DNA of 64,000 bases, taken from positions 1 to 64,000 of the forward strand of contig CP000875.1 in the NCBI GenBank assembly GCA_000018565.1, written 5' to 3'. Below the pieces are notes generated by a model. It was not told the DNA's origin, ran no database searches, and saw only the letters and a list, made by a program, of their open reading frames with translations. This DNA comes from Herpetosiphon aurantiacus DSM 785 (lineage in GTDB: Bacteria > Chloroflexota > Chloroflexia > Chloroflexales > Herpetosiphonaceae). The position numbers and the translations under genes are program-made. Positions 14,745 through 62,255 of the stretch are shown piece by piece. How positions within the stretch are numbered: position 1 is the stretch's first letter; each line of letters opens with the position of its first letter.

Positions 14745-16076
14745 ATGGAACACGCCGAAGTTCGTCGCATGCCTAATGCCCATGTTTGGCCAATCAGTGC
14801 CAGTGTTGTTCATGAGCGCTTGCAGATTGCTAGTTGCGATCTGGCGGCGCTAGCGGCTGAATATGGAACCCCGCTCTATCTGCTGGATGCTGAGACGATT
14901 CGCACGATTGCAATGCGCTATAGTGCCGCATTACGCCATGCCTATGGCAGCAATGTCAGCATTCACTATGCCAGCAAAGCCTTGTTAAATGTAGGCGTGG
15001 CGCGATTAGTGCATTCCTTGGGCTTGGGGTTGGATGTGGTGTCAGGTGGCGAATTGGCAATTGCCCAACGTGCTGGAATGCCGCTCGACCATGTTCATTT
15101 GCACGGCAATGGTACACCACCAGCCGAATTAGCTCAAGCGGTCGAGGCGGGAATTGGCCGAATTGTGGTCGATAATCTTGATCAGCTTAAATGGTTGGCC
15201 GATTATTGCGCCAAACGCCCAACACCCCAAACGATTCTCTTGCGCATCGCTCCCGATGTAACGGCGGGAGCACACGCCCATATTCGCACTGGAGCCGCCA
15301 GCGCTAAGTTTGGCATGCCGCTTGATGATGGCACTGCTGCCGAGGCTGTGCGCTTAGCATTACAAGCACCAGGCTTGAATTTGGTTGGTTTACACGCCCA
15401 TATTGGCTCGCAAATGCGCGATTGGGCCGCCCTGCGCGAGATGATTGGGCGTTTGTTGGCCTTTGCCGATCAGCAACGCCGTGAGCGAAGTTGGCTTTTA
15501 ACTGAATTCAGCCCGGGTGGTGGTTTGGCGGTGGCTTACATGCCCAACGAGCAAGCTGGCGATATCGAAACCTACGCCAATACGATTGCCAATGCTGTGC
15601 GTTTAGGCTGCGAACGCTACCAAATTCCGCTGCCACGCTTGATTATTGAGCCTGGCCGATCATTGGTGGCGCGGGCTGGCGTGGCTCTGTATAGCGTAAC
15701 TGGGCACAAAACGGTGGTCGGTGGTAGCGATTATTTGCATATTGATGGTGGAATGGGCGATAATTTGCGGCCTTCGTTGTACAATGCTCAGTATACCGCT
15801 GCGTTAGTTGCTCGTCCCTGTGCTCCGCCGATTGCGCCCGTTCAATTGGCCGGAAGGTTTTGTGAGTCAGGCGATGTCTTAATTCGTGAAGTAGCGTTGC
15901 CTGCTGCCGAAGTTGGTGAGCTTGTGGCAGTGCCTGTCGCGGGAGCCTATACACTCAGTATGGCCAGCGCGTATAATGGCGTGCCACGCCCAGCCTTGGT
16001 TCTGTTAGATCGAGGTCAGGCGATGCTCATTCAACGCCGCGAAACCTACGCCGATTTGATGGCGCGGGATATTTAG
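14745..16076 (+). CDS. lysA: Diaminopimelate decarboxylase (PLP, fold type III)
   Basis: Catalyses the last step of lysine synthesis, meso-diaminopimelate to L-lysine plus CO2, in the cytoplasm. 443 residues. Fold-III landmarks: the PLP-binding lysine in HYASKALLN (K78), SGGELAIA, GLHAHIGSQ, the phosphate-binding GGGLAVAY, EPGRSLVA, and the active-site CESGD near residue 376. Ornithine/arginine decarboxylases share the fold, but CESGD and the overall pattern favour LysA. GAGGATGAG precedes the ATG. No lysine riboswitch is visible in the 178-nt leader. An intergenic word cluster follows. Confidence 0.9.
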   Translation: MEHAEVRRMPNAHVWPISASVVHERLQIASCDLAALAAEYGTPLYLLDAETIRTIAMRYSAALRHAYGSNVSIHYASKALLNVGVARLVHSLGLGLDVVSGGELAIAQRAGMPLDHVHLHGNGTPPAELAQAVEAGIGRIVVDNLDQLKWLADYCAKRPTPQTILLRIAPDVTAGAHAHIRTGAASAKFGMPLDDGTAAEAVRLALQAPGLNLVGLHAHIGSQMRDWAALREMIGRLLAFADQQRRERSWLLTEFSPGGGLAVAYMPNEQAGDIETYANTIANAVRLGCERYQIPLPRLIIEPGRSLVARAGVALYSVTGHKTVVGGSDYLHIDGGMGDNLRPSLYNAQYTAALVARPCAPPIAPVQLAGRFCESGDVLIREVALPAAEVGELVAVPVAGAYTLSMASAYNGVPRPALVLLDRGQAMLIQRRETYADLMARDI

Positions 16077-16080
16077 CGTA

Positions 16081-16206
16081 AAGGGATCAGGGGCTAGGGG
16101 TCAGGGATCAGGGACTAGCTTTAAATGCTGGTTTTGTGCTCTTCGTGGTTAAAAAAGGAGCCAATGATAGGTATAGCGCCGAACATACCTATGTTCTATG
16201 CTCTAA
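16081..16206. repeat. Intergenic word cluster 1 (lysA-dnaG)
   Basis: G-rich GGGATCAGGGGCTAGGGG words (16082-16117), a TGCTCTTCGTGGTT word (about 16136-16150) and an ATGTTCTATGCTCT word (16191-16204). The last word fills the place where a dnaG ribosome-binding site would be expected. Confidence 0.75.
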
Positions 16207-22981: not shown

Positions 22982-24307
22982 ATGACCCATGAACATCCGC
23001 TTATTACGGCGCGAAATCAGCGCACTGAATGGTTTTTGGCAGCACGCTTTGGCATGTTTATCCACTGGGGGTTATATGCCATTCCGGCACGCGGCGAGTG
23101 GGTACGCAGCCTAGAGAAAATCAGCAACGAAGCCTATCAACCCTACTTTGAGCAATTTAACCCAACCGAGTATCAGCCACGCGAATGGGCCAAGCTGGCC
23201 AAGGCGGCTGGTATGCGCTATGCAGTGCTGACTGCCAAGCATCACGATGGCTTTTGCCTTTTCGATAGCCAACTAACCGACTATAAATCGACGAATACTC
23301 CAGCCGGACGCGATTTGGTGCGCGAGTATGTTGCGGCCTTTCGGGCTGAGGGTTTGCAGGTTGGCTTATATTATTCGCTGCTCGATTGGCATCACCCCGA
23401 TTATCCTGCCTTCGACGACGAATATCATCCGATGCGTGGCAACGAGGCCTATCGTGATCAGCCGCGTGATTTTCAGCGCTACCTCGATTACATGCATGGC
23501 CAAATTGCCGAATTGCTGACCAACTATGGCAAAATTGATATTATGTGGTTCGATTTTTCGTATGGTGATCTGCATGGTGAGGCTTGGCGAGCCAGCGAGT
23601 TGATCAACAAAGCTCGTTCGTTGCAGCCAGATTTAATTATTGATAATCGTTTGGCGGCGAGTGGCGAGGGCAATAATAGCTTTGGCACGCCAAATCCCGA
23701 AATCTATGCTGGCGATTTTGCCTGCCCTGAACAGTTGATTCCGCCAACTGGTTTGGTTGACCAGTTTGGGCGTTCAGTGCCGTGGGAAGCCTGTATCACG
23801 CTCAATCAGCATTGGGGTTATTCGGCCAGCGATCGCGATTTCAAATCGTCGCGCCAAGTCGTGCATGGCTTAATTGAATGCGTCAGCAAAAATGGTAATT
23901 TGCTGCTGAATGTTGGGCCAGATGCCAAGGGCCGCATTCCGGCTGAGTGCCAGCTGATTTTGCAAGAAGTTGGGGTATGGATGGCCGAGCATAGCGAAAG
24001 TATTTATGGTTGTGGTCGGAGCCAACTGGAAAAACCTGAGTGGGGACGCTATACCCAACATGGCTCCACCATCTATGCCCACATTTACGAGCGCGGGATT
24101 GGCCCGATTAATTTTCGCGGCTTGAATGGCAAGGTCAAACGTGCTCGCCTGATCGCCGATAACTCCGAGGTTAAGCTTGAATTGCCGTGGATTGCCAAGG
24201 ACTACGCTGCCGATTTGTTTTTGAACTGGCCCTCGGCTCAATTGCCCAACCAAACCGCGACCGTTGTGGCGTTGGAGTTAGACGAGGGGCCAGAGGCTAG
24301 GGGCTAG
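22982..24307 (+). CDS. GH29-family alpha-L-fucosidase
   Basis: About 441 residues, no signal peptide, so probably intracellular. It hydrolyses terminal alpha-L-fucose. GH29 landmarks: FGMFIHWGLYAIPARGEW near the N-terminus, AVLTAKHHDGFCLFDS (substrate-binding His pair), GLYYSLLDWHHPDY, and the nucleophile Asp in KIDIMWFDFSYGD. A short C-terminal beta domain follows. Start is ATG 22982 or the in-frame GTG just before it (22979); AAAGG stands 7-10 nt upstream. The last eight codons (DEGPEARG) are encoded by the G-rich intergenic repeat, so the native tail may have been altered. Lone gene, no other sugar genes nearby. Confidence 0.9.
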   Translation: MTHEHPLITARNQRTEWFLAARFGMFIHWGLYAIPARGEWVRSLEKISNEAYQPYFEQFNPTEYQPREWAKLAKAAGMRYAVLTAKHHDGFCLFDSQLTDYKSTNTPAGRDLVREYVAAFRAEGLQVGLYYSLLDWHHPDYPAFDDEYHPMRGNEAYRDQPRDFQRYLDYMHGQIAELLTNYGKIDIMWFDFSYGDLHGEAWRASELINKARSLQPDLIIDNRLAASGEGNNSFGTPNPEIYAGDFACPEQLIPPTGLVDQFGRSVPWEACITLNQHWGYSASDRDFKSSRQVVHGLIECVSKNGNLLLNVGPDAKGRIPAECQLILQEVGVWMAEHSESIYGCGRSQLEKPEWGRYTQHGSTIYAHIYERGIGPINFRGLNGKVKRARLIADNSEVKLELPWIAKDYAADLFLNWPSAQLPNQTATVVALELDEGPEARG

Positions 24308-24485
24308 GGGCTAGGGGCTAGGAATCAGGCATTTAACGCAGAAGGTTGAGGGGTTAGGGATCAGGGGCTAGGGGTTCGCAACTTGAAACAAGCTGCATTA
24401 ACTGATCCCTGACCCCTGATCCCTCGTCCTTCGTGCCCTTCGTGTTCTTCGTGGTTAAAAACTGATCCCTGAGCACTAACACCTA
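24282..24485. repeat. Intergenic word cluster 4 (after the fucosidase gene)
   Basis: Tandem GGGGCTA words (24291-24322) start inside the fucosidase frame. A second block GGGGTTAGGGATCAGGGGCTA (20 nt shown: GGGGTTAGGGATCAGGGGCT) near 24350 faces CTGATCCCTGACCCCTGATCC at about 24399-24422. TTCGTGCCCTTCGTGTTCTTCGTGG words follow (about 24427-24455). The loop GAAACAAGCTGC resembles that of cluster 3. Confidence 0.8.
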
Positions 24486-32151: not shown

Positions 32152-32198
32152 CTAAAACAAAAATTTACCAGAATCCATGCTCTGCTGCACACTATAAA

Positions 32199-32273
32199 TT
32201 GTCCTTTAGGGGGTGCAGGGGGATGAAAACACCCTGCGTTCCCCGCCTTGAGGCAGGGCGGAGGGGTGGTGAT
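32199..32273. repeat. 65-75-bp element, copy 1
   Basis: TTGTCCTTTAGGGGGTGCAGG... through CCGCCTTGAGGC to GGGTGGTGAT (32273). It contains an inverted pair GTGCAGGG / CCCTGC and a CGCCTTGAGGCNGG hairpin. The same element, same length, stands at 60969-61043. Confidence 0.75.
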
Positions 32274-38808: not shown

Positions 38809-39813
38809 ATGACAACGACTGCTCAATTCCCAGAGGCTCGGCGTACTACGTCGGGAGCCGGAGCTATTTTGCGCCAATTTTGGGCCACCAGCAAAGGCAT
38901 GACGATCTTTTTCCTGCTTAGTTGCTTTTTCTTGGTGCTCGCAATCGCCGGGGTGACTGTTGACCCGCGTGAGGTGCTTGGCCAACCAGTTTGGATGAAA
39001 AGCCTAAAATTTGCGGTTTCGTTTGTGGTCTATGCGCCAACCGTTTTGTGGATGTTTAGCTATGTTAAGTTGCGGCCTCGTTTGATGCGTTTTGTGATGG
39101 ATGCCTGTGCTGCTGCGCTTTCAATCGAAATTGTGTTATTTATTACCCAAGCTGTGCGCGGCCAACCAATGCACTTCAACGTCGCAACTCCCATTGATGA
39201 AACCTTATGGAGCATCATGGGCACGACGATCACAGTCTTCTATCTGATTAATATTGTTGGATTTGTGGTTTTCCTGCGCCAAAAGCCAATTGCTGATCGC
39301 GTTTTTATGCTCAGTTTGAAGTTGGGAATGGGCTTGATGCTGCTTGGCTTTGGGCTTGGCTTTTTGATGACCAACCCCAGCCCTGCCCAAATGGAAGTGT
39401 TGCAAGCTGGCGGTTCGGTTCCCGCAATTGGTGCGCATACCGTCGGCGCTGCTGATGGCGGTCGTGGCATCGCGATTTTGGGCTGGAGCAGCGAGCATGG
39501 CGATTTACGGATCGCCCACTTTGTTGGCATTCACGGGGCACAAGTGCTGGCTTTGATTGGCTGGTTGCTCTATAACGCCAAACAACGTTTCAACGATAAG
39601 CAACGTTTGGCCTTGACCTGGGGCGCAGCGGTCGCCTATCTCGGCCTCGTCGCCAGCGTGACGGTGCAAGCATTGCGTGGTCAAGCCCTGTTGCAACCTG
39701 ATGCAACCACTTGGATCTCGTGGATTGGTTTGGTAGTTGGCAGTGTGTTGTTTACGAGTGTCGTTGTAAATCAGGGGTCAGTGGCGAGGGTTCAGGGTTC
39801 AGGTAGTTTTTAA
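38809..39813 (+). CDS. Uncharacterised integral membrane protein, 334 residues
   Basis: About seven or eight membrane helices; no named family recognised. Notable are a PVWMKSLKFAVSF helix start and a conserved-looking HGDLRIAHFVGIHGAQVL stretch with several His in or near the membrane, which could bind metal or heme. AAAGGA precedes the ATG. Co-transcribed with the ABA4-like gene. The last 13 codons or so (GSVARVQGSGSF) are read from a G-rich intergenic repeat (GGGGTCAGTGGCGAGGGTTC), so the natural C-terminus probably ended earlier. Confidence 0.7.
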   Translation: MTTTAQFPEARRTTSGAGAILRQFWATSKGMTIFFLLSCFFLVLAIAGVTVDPREVLGQPVWMKSLKFAVSFVVYAPTVLWMFSYVKLRPRLMRFVMDACAAALSIEIVLFITQAVRGQPMHFNVATPIDETLWSIMGTTITVFYLINIVGFVVFLRQKPIADRVFMLSLKLGMGLMLLGFGLGFLMTNPSPAQMEVLQAGGSVPAIGAHTVGAADGGRGIAILGWSSEHGDLRIAHFVGIHGAQVLALIGWLLYNAKQRFNDKQRLALTWGAAVAYLGLVASVTVQALRGQALLQPDATTWISWIGLVVGSVLFTSVVVNQGSVARVQGSGSF

Positions 39814-40080
39814 CGCAGAGGACGAAGGGCTATGGGCTATATATAATGGTTCATTGGGTTGGTAATGATGACTATCCCTCACCCCCTAGCCCCCTCTCCC
39901 GCCCGCGAGGCGAGGGGGAATCGCGCTGACAAGCCTCCCCTCGCTCGCCGCAGTGGGAGAGGGGTCGGGGGTGAGGGGACATTGACGGTTGTTATCCTCG
40001 TAAACCATTAAAGCTATCGGAACGTTTTTGGGAAATTGCGATGATTTCAAGAGCCCAAAGCCTATAGCCTATAGCGTCAT
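39772..40080. repeat. Word cluster 9 enclosing the G/C-rich hairpin element
   Basis: G-rich words (39774-39805), TTAACGCAGAGGACGAAGG and GGGCTATGGGCTATA (39827-39842) on the left. Reverse-complement GCCCAAAGCCTATAGCCTATAGC (20 nt: GCCCAAAGCCTATAGCCTAT) at about 40053-40075 on the right, with CTATCGGAACG at 40014. The left and right G words could close a stem around the element at 39844-40010. Confidence 0.75.
39844..40010. repeat. G/C-rich hairpin element, copy 2, with terminal inverted repeats
   Basis: 167 bp bounded by TAATGGTT (39844-39851) and AACCATTA (40003-40010). Inside, CCCTCACCCCCTAGCCCCC... on the left faces GGGGTCGGGGGTGAGGGG on the right. There is no coding capacity. This is the layout of a miniature hairpin element; no target duplication is evident. 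Confidence 0.7.
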
Positions 40081-41858: not shown

Positions 41859-42765
41859 GGAAATTCATCAATTGCTCTATTTTGTGGCGGTCGCTGAAAC
41901 TGGTGGTTTTAGTCGGGCTGCCCAACGTTGCGCCGTTAGCCAACCTTCGCTCAGCCAACAAATTATTAAATTGGAGCATGAACTCGGTCAAGCGCTGTTT
42001 GAACGTTTGGGTCGCACGATTCGCTTAACCACCGCGGGCCAAGCACTTTTGCCGCAAGCGCAGCAATTGCTCACCCAATGGCGTTCGATCAAACAACATG
42101 TTAGTGATAGTGTCGAGCAGCACGCTTGTCGTTTGGCAATTGGAATTATTCCGACGTTGGCTCCACGCTTTTTTCCGAACGTCAGCCAAGCCTTTCAACA
42201 CCATTTTCCCCGAACAACATTAAGCATAGTTGAACATACGACGAGCCAATTATTAATTCAACTAATCGAATATAGCCTCGATTTGCTAATTGCCAGCGGG
42301 CCGATTGAGCATCCGTTGATCCAGATTGAGCCTTTATTTGATGAAGTGTTGCTGGTAGCATTACCACACGATCATCAATATGCTCAGCGTTCGGTTTTGC
42401 AATTAAATGATTTATATCACATGCCGCTGCTGGCGTTACACGATGACCATTGTTTGAGCCAACAAGTTGATGCCTTTTGCTACGAACAATATTTGGAGCC
42501 GCAAGTGGTTGGGCGAGTCACCAATTTAACCACGATTCAACGCTGTGTAGCCGCAGGCTTGGGCATGGCGTTTGTACCACAATCACTCACCCAAGCCGAG
42601 CCGCATCCCAATGTGGTCTATCGGCGTTTGCTCGATGCCCAGCCACAACGCAAGATCATCGCCGCATGGCATCATCAACGCCCACCAAGCAGCAGTGTGC
42701 TCGATTTATTGCGCACAAACCTTGGAGCAAGTCAAAAGGCAGAAGTCAAAAGGCAAAAGAGTTAA
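41857..42765 (+). CDS. oxyR: OxyR-type LysR regulator
   Basis: 302 residues, peroxide sensor. N-terminal winged helix-turn-helix (FVAVAETGGFSRAAQRCAVS, then QPSLSQQIIKLE). In the sensor domain LALHDDHCLSQQ and DAFC place cysteines at residues 199 and 208, exactly the redox pair positions of E. coli OxyR, within the same HCL..Q.....FC wording. Divergent from catalase with OxyR-like boxes between. The final dozen residues (SQKAEVKRQKS) are encoded by an AAAGTCAAAAGGCAGAAG-type intergenic repeat, so the gene end has been replaced or extended. No Shine-Dalgarno is visible because the operator occupies the site. Confidence 0.93.
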   Translation: MEIHQLLYFVAVAETGGFSRAAQRCAVSQPSLSQQIIKLEHELGQALFERLGRTIRLTTAGQALLPQAQQLLTQWRSIKQHVSDSVEQHACRLAIGIIPTLAPRFFPNVSQAFQHHFPRTTLSIVEHTTSQLLIQLIEYSLDLLIASGPIEHPLIQIEPLFDEVLLVALPHDHQYAQRSVLQLNDLYHMPLLALHDDHCLSQQVDAFCYEQYLEPQVVGRVTNLTTIQRCVAAGLGMAFVPQSLTQAEPHPNVVYRRLLDAQPQRKIIAAWHHQRPPSSSVLDLLRTNLGASQKAEVKRQKS

Positions 42766-42955
42766 AGGGTGAGAGGGGTCAGGGGCTAGGGGTCAGGAGT
42801 AAGCATAGAACAGAGTGAATGCTGTGGCGGGTTGGAAATAGCAAAAGAATAATTCGTGCAATCCGTGCAATCTGTGGCTAAATATACCCTTCGCGTGCTT
42901 CGCGGTTTCAACCCTTCGTGTCCTTCGTGTCCTTCGTGGATCAATCAAGGAGCCG
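42729..42955. repeat. Intergenic word cluster 10 (after oxyR)
   Basis: GTCAAAAGGCAGAAGTCAAA words begin inside oxyR (42730). GAGGGGTCAGGGGCTAGGGG (about 42773-42796), AGCATAGAACAGAG, AATTCGTGCAATCCGTGCAA (about 42851) and CTTCGTGTCCTTCGTGTCCT (about 42915-42940) follow, up to the ribosome-binding site of the next gene. Confidence 0.8.
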
Positions 42956-42958
42956 TTT

Positions 42959-43624
42959 ATGGAACCAAACCTCTTAAATGTGAGCAGCAGTTATCGCCAG
43001 CTGATTGACGCTAATCGAGCGGAAATAACCGTGCGGATCAAAGGCTCGTCGGTGATTAGCAACAATACCGCCTTGGAAAAAGCCAAGGAAGTGCGCCAGT
43101 TGGTCGAAGCCTTGACCAGCTATGGCTTGGACAAGACGGCCATCCAACTCCAAAGCGTGGTGGCTGAGGTGAATAATGGCGTGTTGCTGCGCAGTTCGAG
43201 TGCCACCTATAGCCTCTTAATTCGCTGCACCGATTTAGAGCAACTGCCCGATGTGCTTGGCATTATCACCAGCCAAAAACAAGCCAATCTCGAACATGTT
43301 ACGTGGGGCTTTCCCGATGATCCAGCAATCTTGAATGGATGGCTACAAGCTGCCTTAGAATTAGCCAAAGCCAAGGCCAAAGCAATGGCGCAAACTCTTG
43401 GCGTGCGGATTATCGGCGTGCATCGGGTTGATGATCAATATGGCAGTGAACACCATCCGTATGCCCAAGATGGCGAGTTTCGTAAATCGGCTAGCTTCAT
43501 GCGCAGTGGCGGTAGCGGAATTAGCAAAGACGATTTGGGCCTTGCCATGATCCATCGCAAACAGATCGAAGTCAATGTCCAGGTTGCTTTTATCATCAGC
43601 CCAGATGAGAATTTTACGATCTAG
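42959..43624 (+). CDS. SIMPL-domain (DUF541) protein
   Basis: 221 residues. It contains a SIMPL/DUF541 domain: EITVRIKGSSVISNNTALEKA (20 shown: EITVRIKGSSVISNNTALEK), VEALTSYGLDKTAIQLQSV, a middle TYSLLIRCTDLEQLPDVLG, and AALELAKAKAKAMAQTLGV. Most family members are exported to the periplasm or surface; this one has no signal peptide and should be cytoplasmic. Function of the family is unclear beyond links to stress and membrane signalling. AAGGAG precedes the ATG. Single gene. Confidence 0.8.
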   Translation: MEPNLLNVSSSYRQLIDANRAEITVRIKGSSVISNNTALEKAKEVRQLVEALTSYGLDKTAIQLQSVVAEVNNGVLLRSSSATYSLLIRCTDLEQLPDVLGIITSQKQANLEHVTWGFPDDPAILNGWLQAALELAKAKAKAMAQTLGVRIIGVHRVDDQYGSEHHPYAQDGEFRKSASFMRSGGSGISKDDLGLAMIHRKQIEVNVQVAFIISPDENFTI

Positions 43625-43646
43625 CGAAAATTCGCTAAAAAAGTAC

Positions 43647-43674
43647 TTGATAATGCAATGCGTCATGCTATAAT
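43647..43674 (+). promoter_or_regulatory. Promoter of the CBS-domain gene
   Basis: TTGATA (43647-43652), 16-bp spacer ending in TGC (extended -10), TATAAT (43669-43674). Strong match about 50 nt before the ATG. Confidence 0.7.
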
Positions 43675-43725
43675 AGCCAACAATCGAACCTCGGCCAAAC
43701 CTCAGAAATGCAAAGGAGCATGGCA

Positions 43726-44142
43726 ATGACTGCTCAGTTAACCGTTGGCGATACCATGAACGCAGAAGTAATCTCCTGTCGAACCGAAACCAGCCTCCGC
43801 GAGGCAATCACGCTCCTACAAGGCAACCGCATTCAAGCCTTGGTGGTGGTTGATGGCCCTGGTTCTTTAGCGGGCGTTTTTTCGCAAACCGATGCCCTTG
43901 GTGCTTGGAGTCGTGGCCTCGATTATGAGCGCTCGATGGACAGCCCAGTTGGCGAGTTTATGACCCGCGATGTTATTACCTGTATGCCCCATGTTGATCT
44001 GAGCCGTGCCGCGAATCTGCTGACCAGCAACCGAATTCATCGCTTGGTCGTGGTTGAGGAGCGCAACGATGGCCGCGTTTGGCCGATCGGCGTGCTCTCA
44101 CAAACCGATATTGTGCGCAAATTGGGTGAAGAAGGCCACTAA
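43726..44142 (+). CDS. CBS-domain pair protein
   Basis: 138 residues made only of two CBS motifs (a Bateman module), which bind adenine nucleotides to regulate a partner. Motif 1: VGDTMNAEVISCRTETSLRE and VVVDGPGSLAGVFSQTD. Motif 2: VGEFMTRDVITCMPHVDLSR (20 residues) and IGVLSQTDIVR. No effector domain is attached, so it acts on another protein. ATG 43726 is chosen because AAAGGAG lies 7 nt upstream; two earlier in-frame ATGs overlap that site. A strong promoter lies just upstream. Confidence 0.9.
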   Translation: MTAQLTVGDTMNAEVISCRTETSLREAITLLQGNRIQALVVVDGPGSLAGVFSQTDALGAWSRGLDYERSMDSPVGEFMTRDVITCMPHVDLSRAANLLTSNRIHRLVVVEERNDGRVWPIGVLSQTDIVRKLGEEGH

Positions 44143-44149
44143 ACTAGGT

Positions 44150-44325
44150 CAAAAGTCAAAAGTCAAAAGTCAGAACATTAGACGAGAGGCATGCAGGAGA
44201 GATTAGGAACCACATTTTTAACCGCAAAGAGCACGAAGGATCGCTAAGATCAGTTCCTTCGTGCTCTTCGCGTCCTTCGCGGTTTAAACCTTCGTGTAAC
44301 TTCGTGTTCTTCGTGGATCAAGCCT
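44150..44325. repeat. Intergenic word cluster 11
   Basis: AAAGTCAAAAGTCAAAAGTC (44151-44175). AACCGCAAAGAGCACGAAGG (about 44211) faces CCTTCGTGCTCTTCGCGTCC and CTTCGCGGTT (about 44257-44285), then TTCGTGTTCTTCGTGGATCA. The middle part folds as a hairpin of over 20 bp. Confidence 0.8.
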
Positions 44326-44401
44326 TCCGCTCCCCAGCAACCAACCCTCAAAGCCATGTGCTATGATGCAAGGGCGATTGAATTTAGTGGATGGCGAGTG
44401 T

Positions 44402-44965
44402 ATGAGTGCCGAATCAATTAGCCCAATGACAATTGAGGAATATTTGGCTGGTGAGCGAACCAGCCCTGCTAAACATGAATTTCTGAATGGGCAGGTTTAT
44501 GCCTTGGCTGGCGCGAGTCGCAACCATAATTTGATTGTGGCCAATTTGATTGCCGAATTGCATAGCCAGTTAAAGCAGCGTTCTTGCACAGTTTTCCCCA
44601 GCGATCTCCGCATCAAAATTTCGGCTACAGGCTTGTATACCTATCCTGATGTCTCGGTTGTGCATGGCGAAACCTGGTTTGACGATAGCCATCAAGATAC
44701 CTTGCTTAACCCCACGCTGATTATTGAAGTGCTTTCGCCCTCAACCGAGCACTACGATCGTGGGGGGAAATTTCAGCATTATCGTCAAATTCCCTCGCTG
44801 CGTGAATACCTGTTAGTTGCCCAAGATCCCTACCATATTGAGCACTACAGTCGTCAGGCAGCCAATCAATGGCTCTTAAGCGAAATCGATGATCCACAAG
44901 TAGTGCTGGAGTTACGCTCAATTCAGTGTAGACTGACGGTTCAAGAAGTTTATGCCAAAATATAG
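44402..44965 (+). CDS. Uma2-family (DUF820) PD-(D/E)XK nuclease-like protein
   Basis: 187 residues. It shows the Uma2 layout: MTIEEYLAGERTSPAKHEFL near the N-terminus, FPSDLRIKI, YPDVSVVHG (catalytic Asp), LIIEVLSPSTEHYDRGGKFQ (20 residues; second acidic residue and Lys) and LREYLLVAQD. These proteins resemble restriction endonuclease-fold nucleases, occur in many copies in Cyanobacteria and Chloroflexota, and have no settled function. ATG 44402 begins the homology; the upstream 13 codons look non-coding. Stands alone between two repeat clusters. Confidence 0.88.
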   Translation: MSAESISPMTIEEYLAGERTSPAKHEFLNGQVYALAGASRNHNLIVANLIAELHSQLKQRSCTVFPSDLRIKISATGLYTYPDVSVVHGETWFDDSHQDTLLNPTLIIEVLSPSTEHYDRGGKFQHYRQIPSLREYLLVAQDPYHIEHYSRQAANQWLLSEIDDPQVVLELRSIQCRLTVQEVYAKI

Positions 44966-44967
44966 TG

Positions 44968-45207
44968 TAAAGTCAGAAGGCAAAAGTCAAAAATCAAAAG
45001 AGTCAAGGATATTTCAGGGGTCAGGTTTGTAAAGCAGAGGCACAGAGAAACTATGGCTATTGGCTGAGGGCTATGGTCTATCGGAACAATTGGTAGTATT
45101 TCAAACCAAGCTCCAATAGCCAAAAGCCTAGAGCCGCACTTCTGGTTCTTCGTGGTTTCAACAAGATTCAATTTTTTGCTTTTTGACTTCTGACTTTTGC
45201 CTTTATT
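44968..45207. repeat. Intergenic word cluster 12, mirrored
   Basis: AAAGTCAGAAGGCAAAAGTC (about 44971) on the left and TTTTGACTTCTGACTTTTGC (45181-45200) on the right are reverse complements. Inside them CTATGGCTATTGGC and GGTCTATCGGAAC face CCAATAGCCAAAAGCCTAGA. Also AGGGGTCAGG and TTCTTCGTGG. A nested imperfect inverted repeat of about 235 nt. Confidence 0.8.
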
Positions 45208-57810: not shown

Positions 57811-60800
57811 ATGCGTCGTTTCAGTAAAGTCCGCTTACTGGGAATATGTGTTTTGCTGCTAAGTTTGACGGCTTATCAGCGAACTCCCAATAGTTCGGCT
57901 CAAGTGCTTCGCAGCCTTGTGCCAGTGCCCGAAGTCGAATCAAACGATACATGGCAAAATGCCCATGATCTGACCAGCAGTTGTTTATGGCCGAGCATTA
58001 CAATTTGTGATGTAACGGGCGAGCTTGATGATGGCGAGGATTTAGATTGGTACAAAATTACGGTGCGGCCTGCAACCACCTTGTCAATTAGCCTCACCGA
58101 TACCTTTGGTGATTATCAAGTTGCTTTATTTTATGATTTAGCCAAGCCAATCACCCAAACTGGCCATGTGTCGCTGGGCAACCTGAACGCGATTGGCAAC
58201 CTGAACGCGATTGGCAACCTGAACGCGATTGGCAACCTGAACGCGATTGGCAACCTGAACGCGATTGGCAACCTGAACGCGATTGGCAACCTGAACGCGA
58301 TTGGCAACCTGAACGCGATTGGTTCAAATGGCTATTCCGATGCCAGCATTGATAGCTTTTTATGGACACCTGGTTTTTATTATGTGCTGGTCTATCCGCT
58401 GGATGAAGATCAATCGGGTGATTACAACTTGGCAATTGAAGCAACATTTGATCAAAATTTGACCAAACCATTGCCAATTCCCTTTATGATTAACCAGAGT
58501 GAGCCACCAGATTGCAAACGCTCGCTGTATATCACCAACAGCGATTACTTTAATATTTATGAAGCATTCGCGCCTTATAACACCAGTGTTTATACCGAAT
58601 TACTTGGTTTAGCATCGAAACCAGGCGATACAAGCGGATTGGTGCTTGATTTAGCCAATATTTCATGGATTCAGCCAAGTAATGCATTTAGTGATCAATC
58701 AACGCAGTGGGATAACAATCGTAATAATCCGTTCTATGCCAATCGGATTGCTGAAGGCGTGCATCATCTAATCACTCAATATGCGCGACGCTGTGCGAGC
58801 TTGCGCTATGTCACAATTGTTGGCGGCGATTACGTTGTGCCATTCTATCGCGTGCCCGACGAAACCGTGATTGCCAACGAAGGCGATTATTTGGCAAGTT
58901 CGGGAATTAACACCAATAGCTTCACCGCCAGCAGCCTGAAATACAAAACAATCTTGACTGATAATATTTATGGGGCAATCAAGCCAATTCCTTATCGTGG
59001 TCGCCAGTTATGGGTGCCTGAACTCAGCGTAGGCCGCTTAGTCGAAGGTGCTGATGCAATTCATTTATATCTCAAGAGCATGAACCTGCATACCGATTTC
59101 CCGAGTGGCAGCATGATCAATTTAAATCCTCAACCGCAACAAGCAAATTTGGTGACAGGTTATGATTTCTTGCTTGATCAAGCCAAGGTTATCTCGGGAA
59201 CATTGACAAATTTAGTCGGTGCGCGTCCGGTTGGTTTGATCAGTGATACCTGGGATGCAGATGATTTACTCTCAATCTGGTGGCCCGATGTCAATAATGG
59301 GATGTCCAACTCGCCCTATCCAGCTCAATCAATTAATGCCCACTTTACCCACTATCAGGCGATTCCGGCCAATTTTGAAACCTCAACAGATGTAGTCGAA
59401 GCAAAGGTTCTCTTTCAGCATCCTTTTAGTCCGGTCGCCTTAGAAGATGCTTATCAACGTAATCGTTTAGGCTATAGCGTTGGCTGCCACTCAGGCTATA
59501 GCGTCTACGATAACGATGTTGCTGGTGGCCTTACAAACCCAGTTGCGATCGATTTCCCTCAAGCGTATATGAAGCAACATGGAGCATGGATTGGCAATAC
59601 TGGTTTTGGCTATGGTGATAGTGATTTAGTCGGCTATTCGGAAAAACTCATGGCTCAATTTACTCTCGAAATTGGCCGTGAGTGGAAAAATCAATCAGGA
59701 TTTTATGGGGGCATGCCTATTGGCTATGCCTTAGTTCGGGCCAAACGCAGCTACTTACGCGAAGGCACACCAGGCACATTTAGTGTCTACGATGAGAAAG
59801 TGCTGTTGCAATCAACCTTGTATGGTTTGCCAATGATTCGGGTCTTGGTGCCTAATCCAATTCCCTTCCCCCCAAATGATCGCCAAGATTTTGCCTGTTT
59901 GACCTGCCCACCATCAGTTGCCCATCGAGCAACTGTCACCGATCGGGCAATTGATCGCGATATTACCTTTAACATTAACTACACGACTGCCCAAGATAAT
60001 GCCCGTGGCAAAATCCTCAGGGCACAAGCAACCGTGGTCAACGATACCGAAGGTTTGCTCACGGGCCAGATGTTTAATAGCTCGTTGGTCAATGCGGCGG
60101 GTTTGCCATCATTGCCTAACTTTAGCATTCCACTGTCGCTGACCGATGGTTTTGGGGAACAACGGATTCAAGGGATTCAGTTCCTTGGTGGAACCACAAC
60201 CACCGCCGCAACCTTTAATCCGGTTATTACGCGTTTGATTACTGATGAGATTTATTTGAGCCACGAACCAACCTTTGATTTTACTGATCGTTGGTATCCC
60301 GACCAACCATTTAGCTATAGCGTGTTCGAAAGCGATAATCTCGATGATGATGGCCCGCTCAACCAAGATCGACGTTTCTCGCAGCTCTTGCTAACTCCAA
60401 CCCAATTTAAAGGCAACACATCGGGCGGTGAGTTACGCCAGTTCAGCACCATTACGCTACGGCTGAAATACTTGAGCGATGGCGCTGATGATGATTTGCT
60501 TGATGATACTTTTGACCCAATCGTTCGTGATACCCAGCGCACTAGCGACGGCAAAATTCGGGCAATTGTGATCGAGCGCGATAACGATGGCCCGGGTGAT
60601 GAGCTTGATGCTGAGATGGTTGTCAAAACCAACACTGGTGCTTGGCAAACTGTCAGCATGAATACCTTCCAGATTGGCACAACTGAACGCTGGCAAATTG
60701 AAGGCAGCCTTCCAGCCAATACCTTTCTACCCTTGCAACTGTTGATTCAAGCGGAAGATGAGGCTGGTAATGTCGGGGTTGAAACCTATGGCGGGCGTTT

Positions 60801-60849
60801 CGATATTGATTATGAAATGTATCTGCCCAATGTGAATGTCAACCGCTAG
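57811..60849 (+). CDS. Secreted C25-like (caspase-fold) cysteine peptidase with hexapeptide repeats
   Basis: 1012 residues, exported (signal peptide to about 31). The N-terminal PPC-like domain is about 39-212 (VESNDTWQNAHDL, then DLDWYKITV and GDYNLAIEA), with eight NLNAIG hexapeptides (residues 123-170) inserted in one loop. From about 230 a C25/gingipain-like catalytic region: YVTIVGGDYVVPFYRVPD, the likely catalytic His in NAHFTHYQ (511 or 514), Cys in SVGCHSGYS (C559) and AWIGNTGFGYGDSD after it. A beta-rich C-terminal part ends in EMYLPNVNVNR. Catalytic assignment is by pattern. GGAGG precedes the ATG. A predatory or scavenging role outside the cell is plausible. Confidence 0.75.
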   Translation: MRRFSKVRLLGICVLLLSLTAYQRTPNSSAQVLRSLVPVPEVESNDTWQNAHDLTSSCLWPSITICDVTGELDDGEDLDWYKITVRPATTLSISLTDTFGDYQVALFYDLAKPITQTGHVSLGNLNAIGNLNAIGNLNAIGNLNAIGNLNAIGNLNAIGNLNAIGNLNAIGSNGYSDASIDSFLWTPGFYYVLVYPLDEDQSGDYNLAIEATFDQNLTKPLPIPFMINQSEPPDCKRSLYITNSDYFNIYEAFAPYNTSVYTELLGLASKPGDTSGLVLDLANISWIQPSNAFSDQSTQWDNNRNNPFYANRIAEGVHHLITQYARRCASLRYVTIVGGDYVVPFYRVPDETVIANEGDYLASSGINTNSFTASSLKYKTILTDNIYGAIKPIPYRGRQLWVPELSVGRLVEGADAIHLYLKSMNLHTDFPSGSMINLNPQPQQANLVTGYDFLLDQAKVISGTLTNLVGARPVGLISDTWDADDLLSIWWPDVNNGMSNSPYPAQSINAHFTHYQAIPANFETSTDVVEAKVLFQHPFSPVALEDAYQRNRLGYSVGCHSGYSVYDNDVAGGLTNPVAIDFPQAYMKQHGAWIGNTGFGYGDSDLVGYSEKLMAQFTLEIGREWKNQSGFYGGMPIGYALVRAKRSYLREGTPGTFSVYDEKVLLQSTLYGLPMIRVLVPNPIPFPPNDRQDFACLTCPPSVAHRATVTDRAIDRDITFNINYTTAQDNARGKILRAQATVVNDTEGLLTGQMFNSSLVNAAGLPSLPNFSIPLSLTDGFGEQRIQGIQFLGGTTTTAATFNPVITRLITDEIYLSHEPTFDFTDRWYPDQPFSYSVFESDNLDDDGPLNQDRRFSQLLLTPTQFKGNTSGGELRQFSTITLRLKYLSDGADDDLLDDTFDPIVRDTQRTSDGKIRAIVIERDNDGPGDELDAEMVVKTNTGAWQTVSMNTFQIGTTERWQIEGSLPANTFLPLQLLIQAEDEAGNVGVETYGGRFDIDYEMYLPNVNVNR
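58177..58320 (+). repeat. Eight perfect 18-bp tandem repeats in the peptidase gene
   Basis: GGCAACCTGAACGCGATT repeated exactly 8 times (144 bp) without a single difference, encoding NLNAIG in frame. Identity at every wobble base points to recent expansion; copy number probably varies between strains without frameshifts. Confidence 0.97.
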
Positions 60850-60904: not shown

Positions 60905-60968
60905 TTACTTCGTTTTATTACAAATCAACAATTCTCTTATTCAGCGGCAGATGCATAGACATCCCTGA

Positions 60969-61043
60969 TTGTGCTTGAGGGGGTGCAGGGGGATTAAAGC
61001 CCCCTGCATCTCCCGCCTTGAGGCGGGACGGAAGGGTGGTGAT
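60969..61043. repeat. 65-75-bp element, copy 2
   Basis: Same order and same length as 32199-32273: TTGTGCTTGAGGGGGTGCAGG..., CCCCCTGCATCTCCCGCC, TTGAGGCGGGACGGAAGGGT and GGTGAT. The two copies differ at scattered bases. The remaining gap to 61204 shows no gene. Confidence 0.75.
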
Positions 61044-61204: not shown

Positions 61205-62137
61205 ATGGAAGAGCAACCGACGAAGCCTGTTAAGGATGGGCTGATCGCCCAAAGTTATATTCCAACCGATCAAATTGCCACGGTGTTGTATTTGGCTGAT
61301 CGCTTGGAAAAGCCGTTATTGGCCGAAGGTCCAGCCGGGGTGGGTAAAACTGAGCTTGCCAAGGCTTGGGCTGCGGCAACTGGCCGCGAGTTGATTCGTT
61401 TGCAGTGCTATGAAGGGCTTGATGAAACCAAAGCGCTCTACGAGTGGGAATATGCCAAGCAAATGTTATATACCCAACTGCTGCGCGATAAACTCAATAA
61501 TTTGCTTTCTGATGCCGATTCGTTGCGCTCCGCCGCCGATCGTCTGGCCGCCGAAGAAGAAGTGTTCTTCTCGCAGCGCTTTTTATTGCAACGTCCCTTG
61601 CTCAAGGCAATTCTCAATCCTAAACCTACGCTGCTCTTGATCGACGAAATTGATCGGGCCGATGCTGAGTTTGAGGCCTTTTTGCTCGAAGTACTATCGG
61701 ATTTTCAAATTACTGTGCCTGAGCTTGGTACGCTCAAAGCAGCCCATCGGCCAATTGTGATTTTGACCAGCAACAATACGCGTGAGCTTTCCGAAGCCCT
61801 CAAGCGCCGTTGTATGTATTTATTTATTGGCTATCCTTCGCTCGAAGAAGAATTGCGAATCGTCGAGATGAAAGTGCCAGCCTTGGGAGCCAAATTGGCC
61901 CGCCAAGCGGTCGAATTTGTGCAACGTTTGCGCAATCTTGATCTCAAAAAGTCGCCTTCAATCTCCGAAACGCTGGATTGGGCACGGGCTTTGGTGCTGC
62001 TCAATGCCAAACAACTTGATCAGGATATCCTTGATCAAACCATGACCGTGCTTTTGAAGCATGAAAGCGACCTGCAACGCACCCAACGCGCCATCCAAAC
62101 AGGCCGCAACCGCAACGACGAAGGACGAAGAAAGTAA
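61205..62137 (+). CDS. MoxR-family AAA+ ATPase (CoxD-like)
   Basis: 310 residues, cytoplasmic. Walker [14 protein letters not shown] near residue 50, Walker B TLLLIDEIDRAD near 145, sensor TSNNTRELSEALKRRC near 185 and an insert with many charged residues. The MoxR class works with von Willebrand A proteins to assemble or activate metal enzymes. The VWA partner starts 130 nt downstream. ATG 61205 has AGGAG 10 nt upstream; the open frame extends to 61136 but that part is Pro/Thr-rich and unconserved-looking. The last residues (NRNDEGRRK) come from a CGACGAAGGACGAAG word, and the next repeat follows directly. Confidence 0.9.
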   Translation: MEEQPTKPVKDGLIAQSYIPTDQIATVLYLADRLEKPLLAEGPAGVGKTELAKAWAAATGRELIRLQCYEGLDETKALYEWEYAKQMLYTQLLRDKLNNLLSDADSLRSAADRLAAEEEVFFSQRFLLQRPLLKAILNPKPTLLLIDEIDRADAEFEAFLLEVLSDFQITVPELGTLKAAHRPIVILTSNNTRELSEALKRRCMYLFIGYPSLEEELRIVEMKVPALGAKLARQAVEFVQRLRNLDLKKSPSISETLDWARALVLLNAKQLDQDILDQTMTVLLKHESDLQRTQRAIQTGRNRNDEGRRK

Positions 62138-62255
62138 AATCAAAAGGCAAAAGTCAGAAATCAAAAGGCAAAAGACCTCAAGCGATTAGAATCTGTCATC
62201 GATCCTAACTTCTCACTTTTTGACCTTTGACTTTTGCCTTCTGACTTTTCAAAGG
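62100..62255. repeat. Word cluster 15 between the MoxR and VWA genes
   Basis: CGACGAAGGACGAAGAAAG (inside the MoxR gene end), AAAATCAAAAGGCAAAAGTC (62136-62155) and a repeat of it, facing TTTTTGACCTTTGACTTTTG and CCTTCTGACTTTTC (about 62217-62251). Left and right blocks are reverse complements, giving a hairpin within the operon. Confidence 0.8.

Follow-up and report, generated by a model that had tools for sequence, protein, structure and literature searches.

Tandem spacer words supply C-terminal residues and stop codons in Herpetosiphon, with sister species bearing different word families at the same gene end

The last residues of several proteins of Herpetosiphon aurantiacus DSM 785 are read from short tandem words of the adjoining intergenic spacers, and at one and the same gene end the family of word differs between sister species. 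We describe these tails in a window of 64,000 nucleotides (nt; contig CP000875.1, positions 1 to 64,000 of the forward strand) of the source genome (G000; 6.79 Mb, three contigs), and compare them in six Herpetosiphon genomes, namely G000 and five same-genus relatives (G001–G005). The spacers of the genus hold tandem heptamers of the AGGGGTC, AAAAGTC, CATAGAA, GGATGAA and GGCTATG types, as well as a tandem 9-mer, CACGAAGGA. As judged from sequence, the tails are probably passive products of these repeats, which would overwrite DNA as far as the last codon under constraint.

A first-pass annotation of the window had proposed that spacer words encode the C-termini of four proteins: a membrane protein, a GH29 fucosidase, OxyR and a MoxR ATPase. 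All four frames, tails and stops that it named are present in the sequence, and orthologues of all four proteins occur in each of the five relatives. Upon alignment with these orthologues, homology ends where the word starts in three of the four, the membrane protein, GH29 and OxyR; MoxR does not follow this pattern.

The membrane protein, encoded on the plus strand, has a conserved core (38809–39771, ending ..TSVVVN), and the orthologues in all six genomes align to about its last codon. The remainder (39772–39813, plus strand) consists of the tail QGSVARVQGSGSF and the stop TAA (39811–39813), with AGGGGTC words starting at 39773. Peptides of AGGG words likewise form the tail in G005, G003 and G002, the last of which reads QGSGAGVQGSEIGL-TAG, and in G001 and G004 the protein ends NKKNIEQRA-TAG from CATAGAA words, diverging at the very codon where the G000 word tail begins. 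Among more distant relatives, the end could be read in three of seven, and there the tails are short and unrelated. In GH29, the tail DEGPEARG and the stop TAG (24305–24307) occupy 24281–24307 on the plus strand within AGGGGCT words, and the strict word scan places an AGGGGCT array across the stop codon (24299–24319, plus strand). Its counterparts end DEGSGIKG in G005, DES in G003 and LELE in G001, G002 and G004. The OxyR (LysR-type) tail, SQKAEVKRQKS (42730–42762, plus strand), and its stop TAA (42763–42765) are read from AAAAGTC words. The protein ends ..TNLGASQKAEVKRQKS in G000, ..TNLGASQKAEVKRQIGASQKAEIKRQNN in G005, ..TNLVQSQKAEIKSQNS in G001 and ..TNLLQIQKEEIKSQNS in G002; in G003 it closes with ..TKLLEG-TGA, where GGATGAA words begin, and in G004 with ..TNLLGRT-TAG, where CATAGAA words begin.

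The MoxR tail NRNDEGR(R) (62111–62131, plus strand), by contrast with the proposal, is encoded by the gene and contains no word. All six genomes share GRNRNDEGRR, even though two kinds of array follow it: AAAAGTC-type arrays in G000 and G001, GGATGAA arrays at the same place in G002–G005. MoxR was ruled out as a repeat-made tail on the grounds of this conservation. The word-made part comprises at most the last one to three codons and the stop (62135–62137), which opens a stretch (62135–62250, plus strand) made up of an AAAAGTC array, a loop and a complementary array. In the single genome of another genus of the family the corresponding sequence is GRNRGGDDERRYR, and across the comparison beyond the genus the motif is missing in 3 of 24 rows.

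That the repeats furnish new stop codons as well as new residues, which had also been claimed, is borne out by the gene at 72641–73558. In G001 and G002 it ends ..LSH-TAA; in G000 and G005 the end is ..LQG-TGA and lies within GGATGAA words. The word-free form is presumably the older.

An ortholog survey extended the comparison to 164 kb and 128 called genes, 116 of them with an orthologue in at least one of the five relatives (not every gene was covered in all five). At 20 of the 116 gene ends, one or more genomes have an array within the interval −60 to +25, and 10 of these 20 carry two or more word families among the orthologues; 5 of the 116 have an array that starts within the gene itself in one genome or more. 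Nine ends bear arrays in both G000 and G001, five of the same family and four of different families (Fisher P = 2e-7). The corresponding numbers for the nine ends shared with G002 are four and five, and for the nine shared with the closer G005, seven and two. Array presence at a gene end is conserved and array family is not. Examples are the AAAAGTC array directly behind the stop of 43726–44142 (44143–44184, plus strand), where G002, G003, G004 and G005 have a GGATGAA array, and that behind the stop of 44363–44965 (44966–45008, plus strand), where G001 and G003 have a CATAGAA array. Since families differ between sister species at one gene end, words would turn over fast on the scale of species, apparently by replacement in place. 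These differences agree with the earlier suggestion that the repeats are active or recombining as far as change between species is concerned; some arrays, such as that of OxyR, are old, and present activity is without support.

Most genes keep their ends. Four or more C-terminal residues fail to align in some pair of species at 10 of the 116; by eye, words explain four of these, ordinary shifts five and a short frame in G005 the last. The six cases without words could be taken to favour another account, in which ordinary spacer is read through by chance, or genes are miscalled, and the words are irrelevant to the ends. We regard it as exceedingly improbable, as two sets of data speak against it. 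First, the orthologues of the membrane protein, GH29 and OxyR part at the word itself, which contradicts it for these three, and so do those of genes followed elsewhere in the genome. Second, the density of arrays in spacers is about 100 times that in coding DNA, yet 27 of the 646 genes called in the six genomes (11 orthologue groups) have arrays (29 in all) that start more than 3 nt within their stop end, compared with none of the 646 at the start end. All 29 arrays inside stops are purine-rich on the coding strand. In the 464 kb of G000 from which the density is taken, the spacers (70,108 nt) contain 183 strict arrays and the coding DNA (393,892 nt) 8, with a further 6 straddling the two; 5 of the 8 coding arrays are tail arrays at stop ends, and a dispersed element, here called H, accounts for 87 of the 183 spacer arrays and 1 of the 8. 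A strict array is two or more consecutive words, and since degenerate arrays are missed, array counts are lower bounds. Masking of words by frequent 11-mers was dropped, being too noisy within coding DNA. Genes were called by a codon-usage caller, the stops of which are more reliable than the starts.

The window was itself picked for its tails. A replication scan covered 20 stretches of 20 kb elsewhere in G000 (400 kb). With the strict pattern, arrays inside the stop end were found in 7 of 354 called genes of G000, three among the 46 of the window and four among the 308 from the rest; the fourth gene of the scan, L089, ends ..NEG. Three of the four scan genes were followed through the six genomes, and their cores are conserved and their ends species-specific: word-made ends such as ..VGVQKSQKSEGKNQKG (AAAAGTC) and ..VGVQRSIEHRA (CATAGAA), and the native-looking ..VGVQRSIEKLEE in other species.

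The position of the arrays is what passive overwriting would produce, namely a sharp edge at stops, a blurred edge at starts and near absence from inside starts. Among 305 3′ ends followed by a spacer of at least 150 nt, a first array is present at 87, and 51 of the 87 lie at −10 to +19 nt of the stop. The 76 first arrays at 453 5′ ends are scattered over 150 nt; the first array lies up to 10 nt inside the called start in 1 of these 453, and a single other array reaches into a called start, by 3 nt.

We propose the following course of events. The tandem words, of several families and 7 or 9 nt long, would turn over quickly in Herpetosiphon spacers, overwriting whatever lies there until halted by the first base held by selection. 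On the 3′ side of a gene this would be the last needed codon, and on the 5′ side the region of the promoter and the ribosome-binding site. Once an array has passed the old stop, translation would enter the words and terminate at the first in-frame stop they contain, such as the TGA of GGATGAA or the TAG of CATAGAA and GGGGCTA words; AAAAGTC words offer few stops on the coding strand and would give longer tails. As the words near stops are purine-rich on the coding strand, the tails would be drawn from a single set of peptides (QGSG.., SQKAEVK.., KNIEQR.., ..EG). Passive overwriting leaves unexplained how the words are made and why they are oriented.

The orientation is pronounced. With element H left out, 96 arrays near stops are sense and 10 antisense, and near starts the numbers are 2 and 36. 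The earlier notion of a process peculiar to 3′ ends is not supported, as arrays also lie before start codons, in the opposite orientation. Six families (AGGGGTC, AAAAGTC, CATAGAA, GGATGAA, GGCTATG and CACGAAGGA) are purine-rich outward from genes. Pooled and read on the plus strand, they number 168 outward to 55 inward in left spacer halves and 14 to 146 in right halves, in counts that, like those of array position, combine the orthologous, hence not independent, spacers of six species; CGCAGAG words contributed one array only. At gene borders the orientation is strict (51:0 in the first tenth of tandem spacers), and the trend recurs where the flanking genes are divergent or convergent. Where a spacer holds both orientations (n = 101), 100 start purine-rich and 101 finish pyrimidine-rich, 93 being plainly purine-first and pyrimidine-last and 8 otherwise.

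A purine-rich array followed by a pyrimidine-rich one would also result from a mobile hairpin, akin to a miniature inverted-repeat transposable element (MITE), in which a purine array, a loop and a complementary pyrimidine array are inserted whole at gene ends, so that the shape of the unit gives both orientation and stop overlap. The MoxR spacer fits this description, its two arms switching together between species, and AAAAGTC hairpins at no fewer than two distant G000 loci resemble it (105 nt, 78%; 112 nt, 73%) with partly aligning loops, among the best 40 candidates scored per genome in the DNA searches for such hairpins and for element H. Beyond the genus, a reverse complement lies within 500 nt of the CACGAAGGA word at 37 of 72 listed loci. 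Across spacers in general, however, the arms do not bear it out. In 80 spacers, complementarity between the two arms does not exceed that with arms taken from elsewhere (15.8 versus 15.5; permutation standard deviation (s.d.) 1.09), and adjacent arms share their family in 20 of 109 transitions, against 15.0 expected (s.d. 3.6). A previous test with 9-mers had pointed to local pairing (1.06 versus 0.37, s.d. 0.13, 133 spacers), with terminators and element H mixed in. With own-arm complementarity no higher than that of foreign arms and family sharing only slightly above permutation, the hairpin was ruled out as a general unit. By the same comparison the word arrays do not show the terminal inverted repeats or complementary arms of MITE-like repeats such as RU and ERIC, the MoxR spacer being an exception, and we consider insertion of whole hairpins unlikely as the source of the tails.

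The CACGAAGGA word extends well beyond the genus. In the window it occurs at 24427–24463, 42912–42948 and 44255–44325, and its pattern is found 54 to 72 times per Herpetosiphon genome, with none in the single genome of another genus of the family. Among 301 Chloroflexota genomes it is present in 14, including 6 from Herpetosiphon. A related pattern recurs in many phyla, in at least 112 stretches, of which 80 loci were examined, 72 of them outside Herpetosiphon. Among these listed loci, tandem CACGAAGGA is represented in Planctomycetes, Verrucomicrobia, several Proteobacteria, Acidobacteria and other groups, often together with its reverse complement and a short way downstream of genes. Of 70 sites for which enough sequence was available upstream, 29 fall near the end of a long frame; for random places the figure is 209 of 1420. 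The other Herpetosiphon words are scarcely present at the 72 loci outside the genus. It is conceivable, if rather doubtful, that a single process spans several word families and phyla, writing tandem words outward from gene ends with the purine strand leading and rewriting families in place, with C-terminal peptides coming from a small shared vocabulary exchanged between sister species. The odds of this are lowered by the CACAGATTA words and element H, both of which depart from the orientation rule.

Several further observations weigh against passive overwriting by oriented words, including these two departures. The CACAGATTA words have no orientation (8 sense to 15 antisense in left spacer halves, 12 to 22 in right halves), element H, near stops, is sense in 12 cases and antisense in 23, and arrays lying over 120 nt away from both neighbouring genes are weakly oriented (51:45 left, 21:47 right). 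Part of the family switching may, in addition, be import of alleles between species. The gene at 42959–43624 is 94% identical between G001 and G000, compared with 80% for G002 and G004, and two genes downstream the spacer behind 44142 is nearly alike in G000 and G001. Exchange between species across 42959–44362 is likely, with a G000-like version in G001 and none in G002 and G004. Finally, the AAAAGTC tail of OxyR is common to G000, G005, G001 and G002, four species from both clades, and the protein is 302 residues long in each of G000, G001 and G002. Given such persistence and equal length, selection for a tail may act.

Selection enters more generally if the arrays are functional elements, kept behind stops for termination, mRNA stability or protein binding, with the tails as by-products. 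This would account for their sharp clustering at the stop, for the conservation of array presence at the same gene end despite the change of family and for the orientation shared by several families near gene borders. Yet 96 of the 116 surveyed gene ends have no strict array in any genome, unrelated families substitute for one another at a given end, and comparison of the window with Rfam gave no hit at the gathering thresholds. We judge such a function distinctly unlikely to underlie the arrays, and favour passive overwriting, in which the tails are tolerated rather than kept.

Other repeats share the spacers of the window. Element H, about 190 nt long with ends TAATGGTT...AACCATTA and core CCCTCACCCCC/GGGGGTGAGGG, lies behind the membrane protein at 39830–40015 (ends approximate; no strand assigned). 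At E 1e-12 it has at least 43 matches in G000, 40 in G003, 43 in G002, 22 in G004 and 4 in G005, and none in G001 among the best 40 candidates per genome. A 76-nt spacer element has two window copies (32198–32273 and 60968–61043) that are 86% alike; behind the same gene, G001 and G002 have a comparable stretch, and G003 and G005 lack it. An AGGGATC/AGGGGCT array follows the stop of 14745–16076 (16077–16129, plus strand), and tandem 18-nt repeats (GGCAACCTGAACGCGATT) lie at 58136–58351 within the large gene 57811–60849.

Both stop-codon heptamers and C-termini made by repeats have been published before, and the comparisons that follow draw on parts of the cited papers. Rehm et al. 2015 (PMC4692102) report G-rich heptamers, GGGAATC and GGGGA(C/T)T, in Xanthomonas and Nostoc spacers, preferentially within 50 bp behind a stop on the sense strand or before an open reading frame on the antisense strand, some of them over the stop codon, with a preference for four units and with paired inverted arrays in Xanthomonas. 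The Herpetosiphon arrays likewise run sense behind stops and antisense before starts. Unlike those heptamers, they belong to several families, most of them without G-tracts. As read from the words, repeated G-tracts of three or more occur only in the AGGG(G/A) family and in none of AAAAGTC, CATAGAA, GGATGAA and CACGAAGGA. As words without G-tracts share the orientation reported for the G-rich heptamers, quadruplexes are apparently not required for it. Heptamer repeats known as STRR occur in cyanobacteria as well.

MacGregor 2015 (PMC4679880) describes TAACTGA heptamers in Beggiatoaceae that lie over stop codons and in some cases encode protein ends, and argues that insertion succeeds mainly at the protein periphery. 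That system has one word, mostly just before starts, whereas Herpetosiphon has several, with orthologous ends compared across sister species. In Delihas 2007 (PMC2759123), the enterobacterial spacer repeats RU-1, RU-2 and RU-3 remove a stop and add C-terminal residues absent from orthologues; these are MITE-like units of 103 to 168 bp with fusions in 24 gene loci, as opposed to tandem words. De novo C-termini through stop-codon loss into non-coding DNA are reported for yeast and fly by Andreatta et al. 2015 (PMC4494051); there too non-coding DNA becomes a C-terminal extension, which is not described, in the part of the paper used here, as repeat overwriting. Family replacement at one gene end and the polarity of words without G-tracts were not found in the parts of Rehm 2015, MacGregor 2015 and Delihas 2007 drawn on here, nor elsewhere in the library searched, at the level of titles and opening lines of abstracts. 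A literature search with six word strings returned no papers, and by the same titles and abstract openings none of the papers listed for Herpetosiphon concerns these repeats.

Overwriting by spacer words would give bacterial C-termini a route to change by whole repeat-made peptides at a step. In Herpetosiphon, the same gene bearing a different word at the same place provides many natural replicates for asking whether C-termini are free or constrained, and the presence of the CACGAAGGA word in many phyla makes the origin of the vocabulary a testable question.
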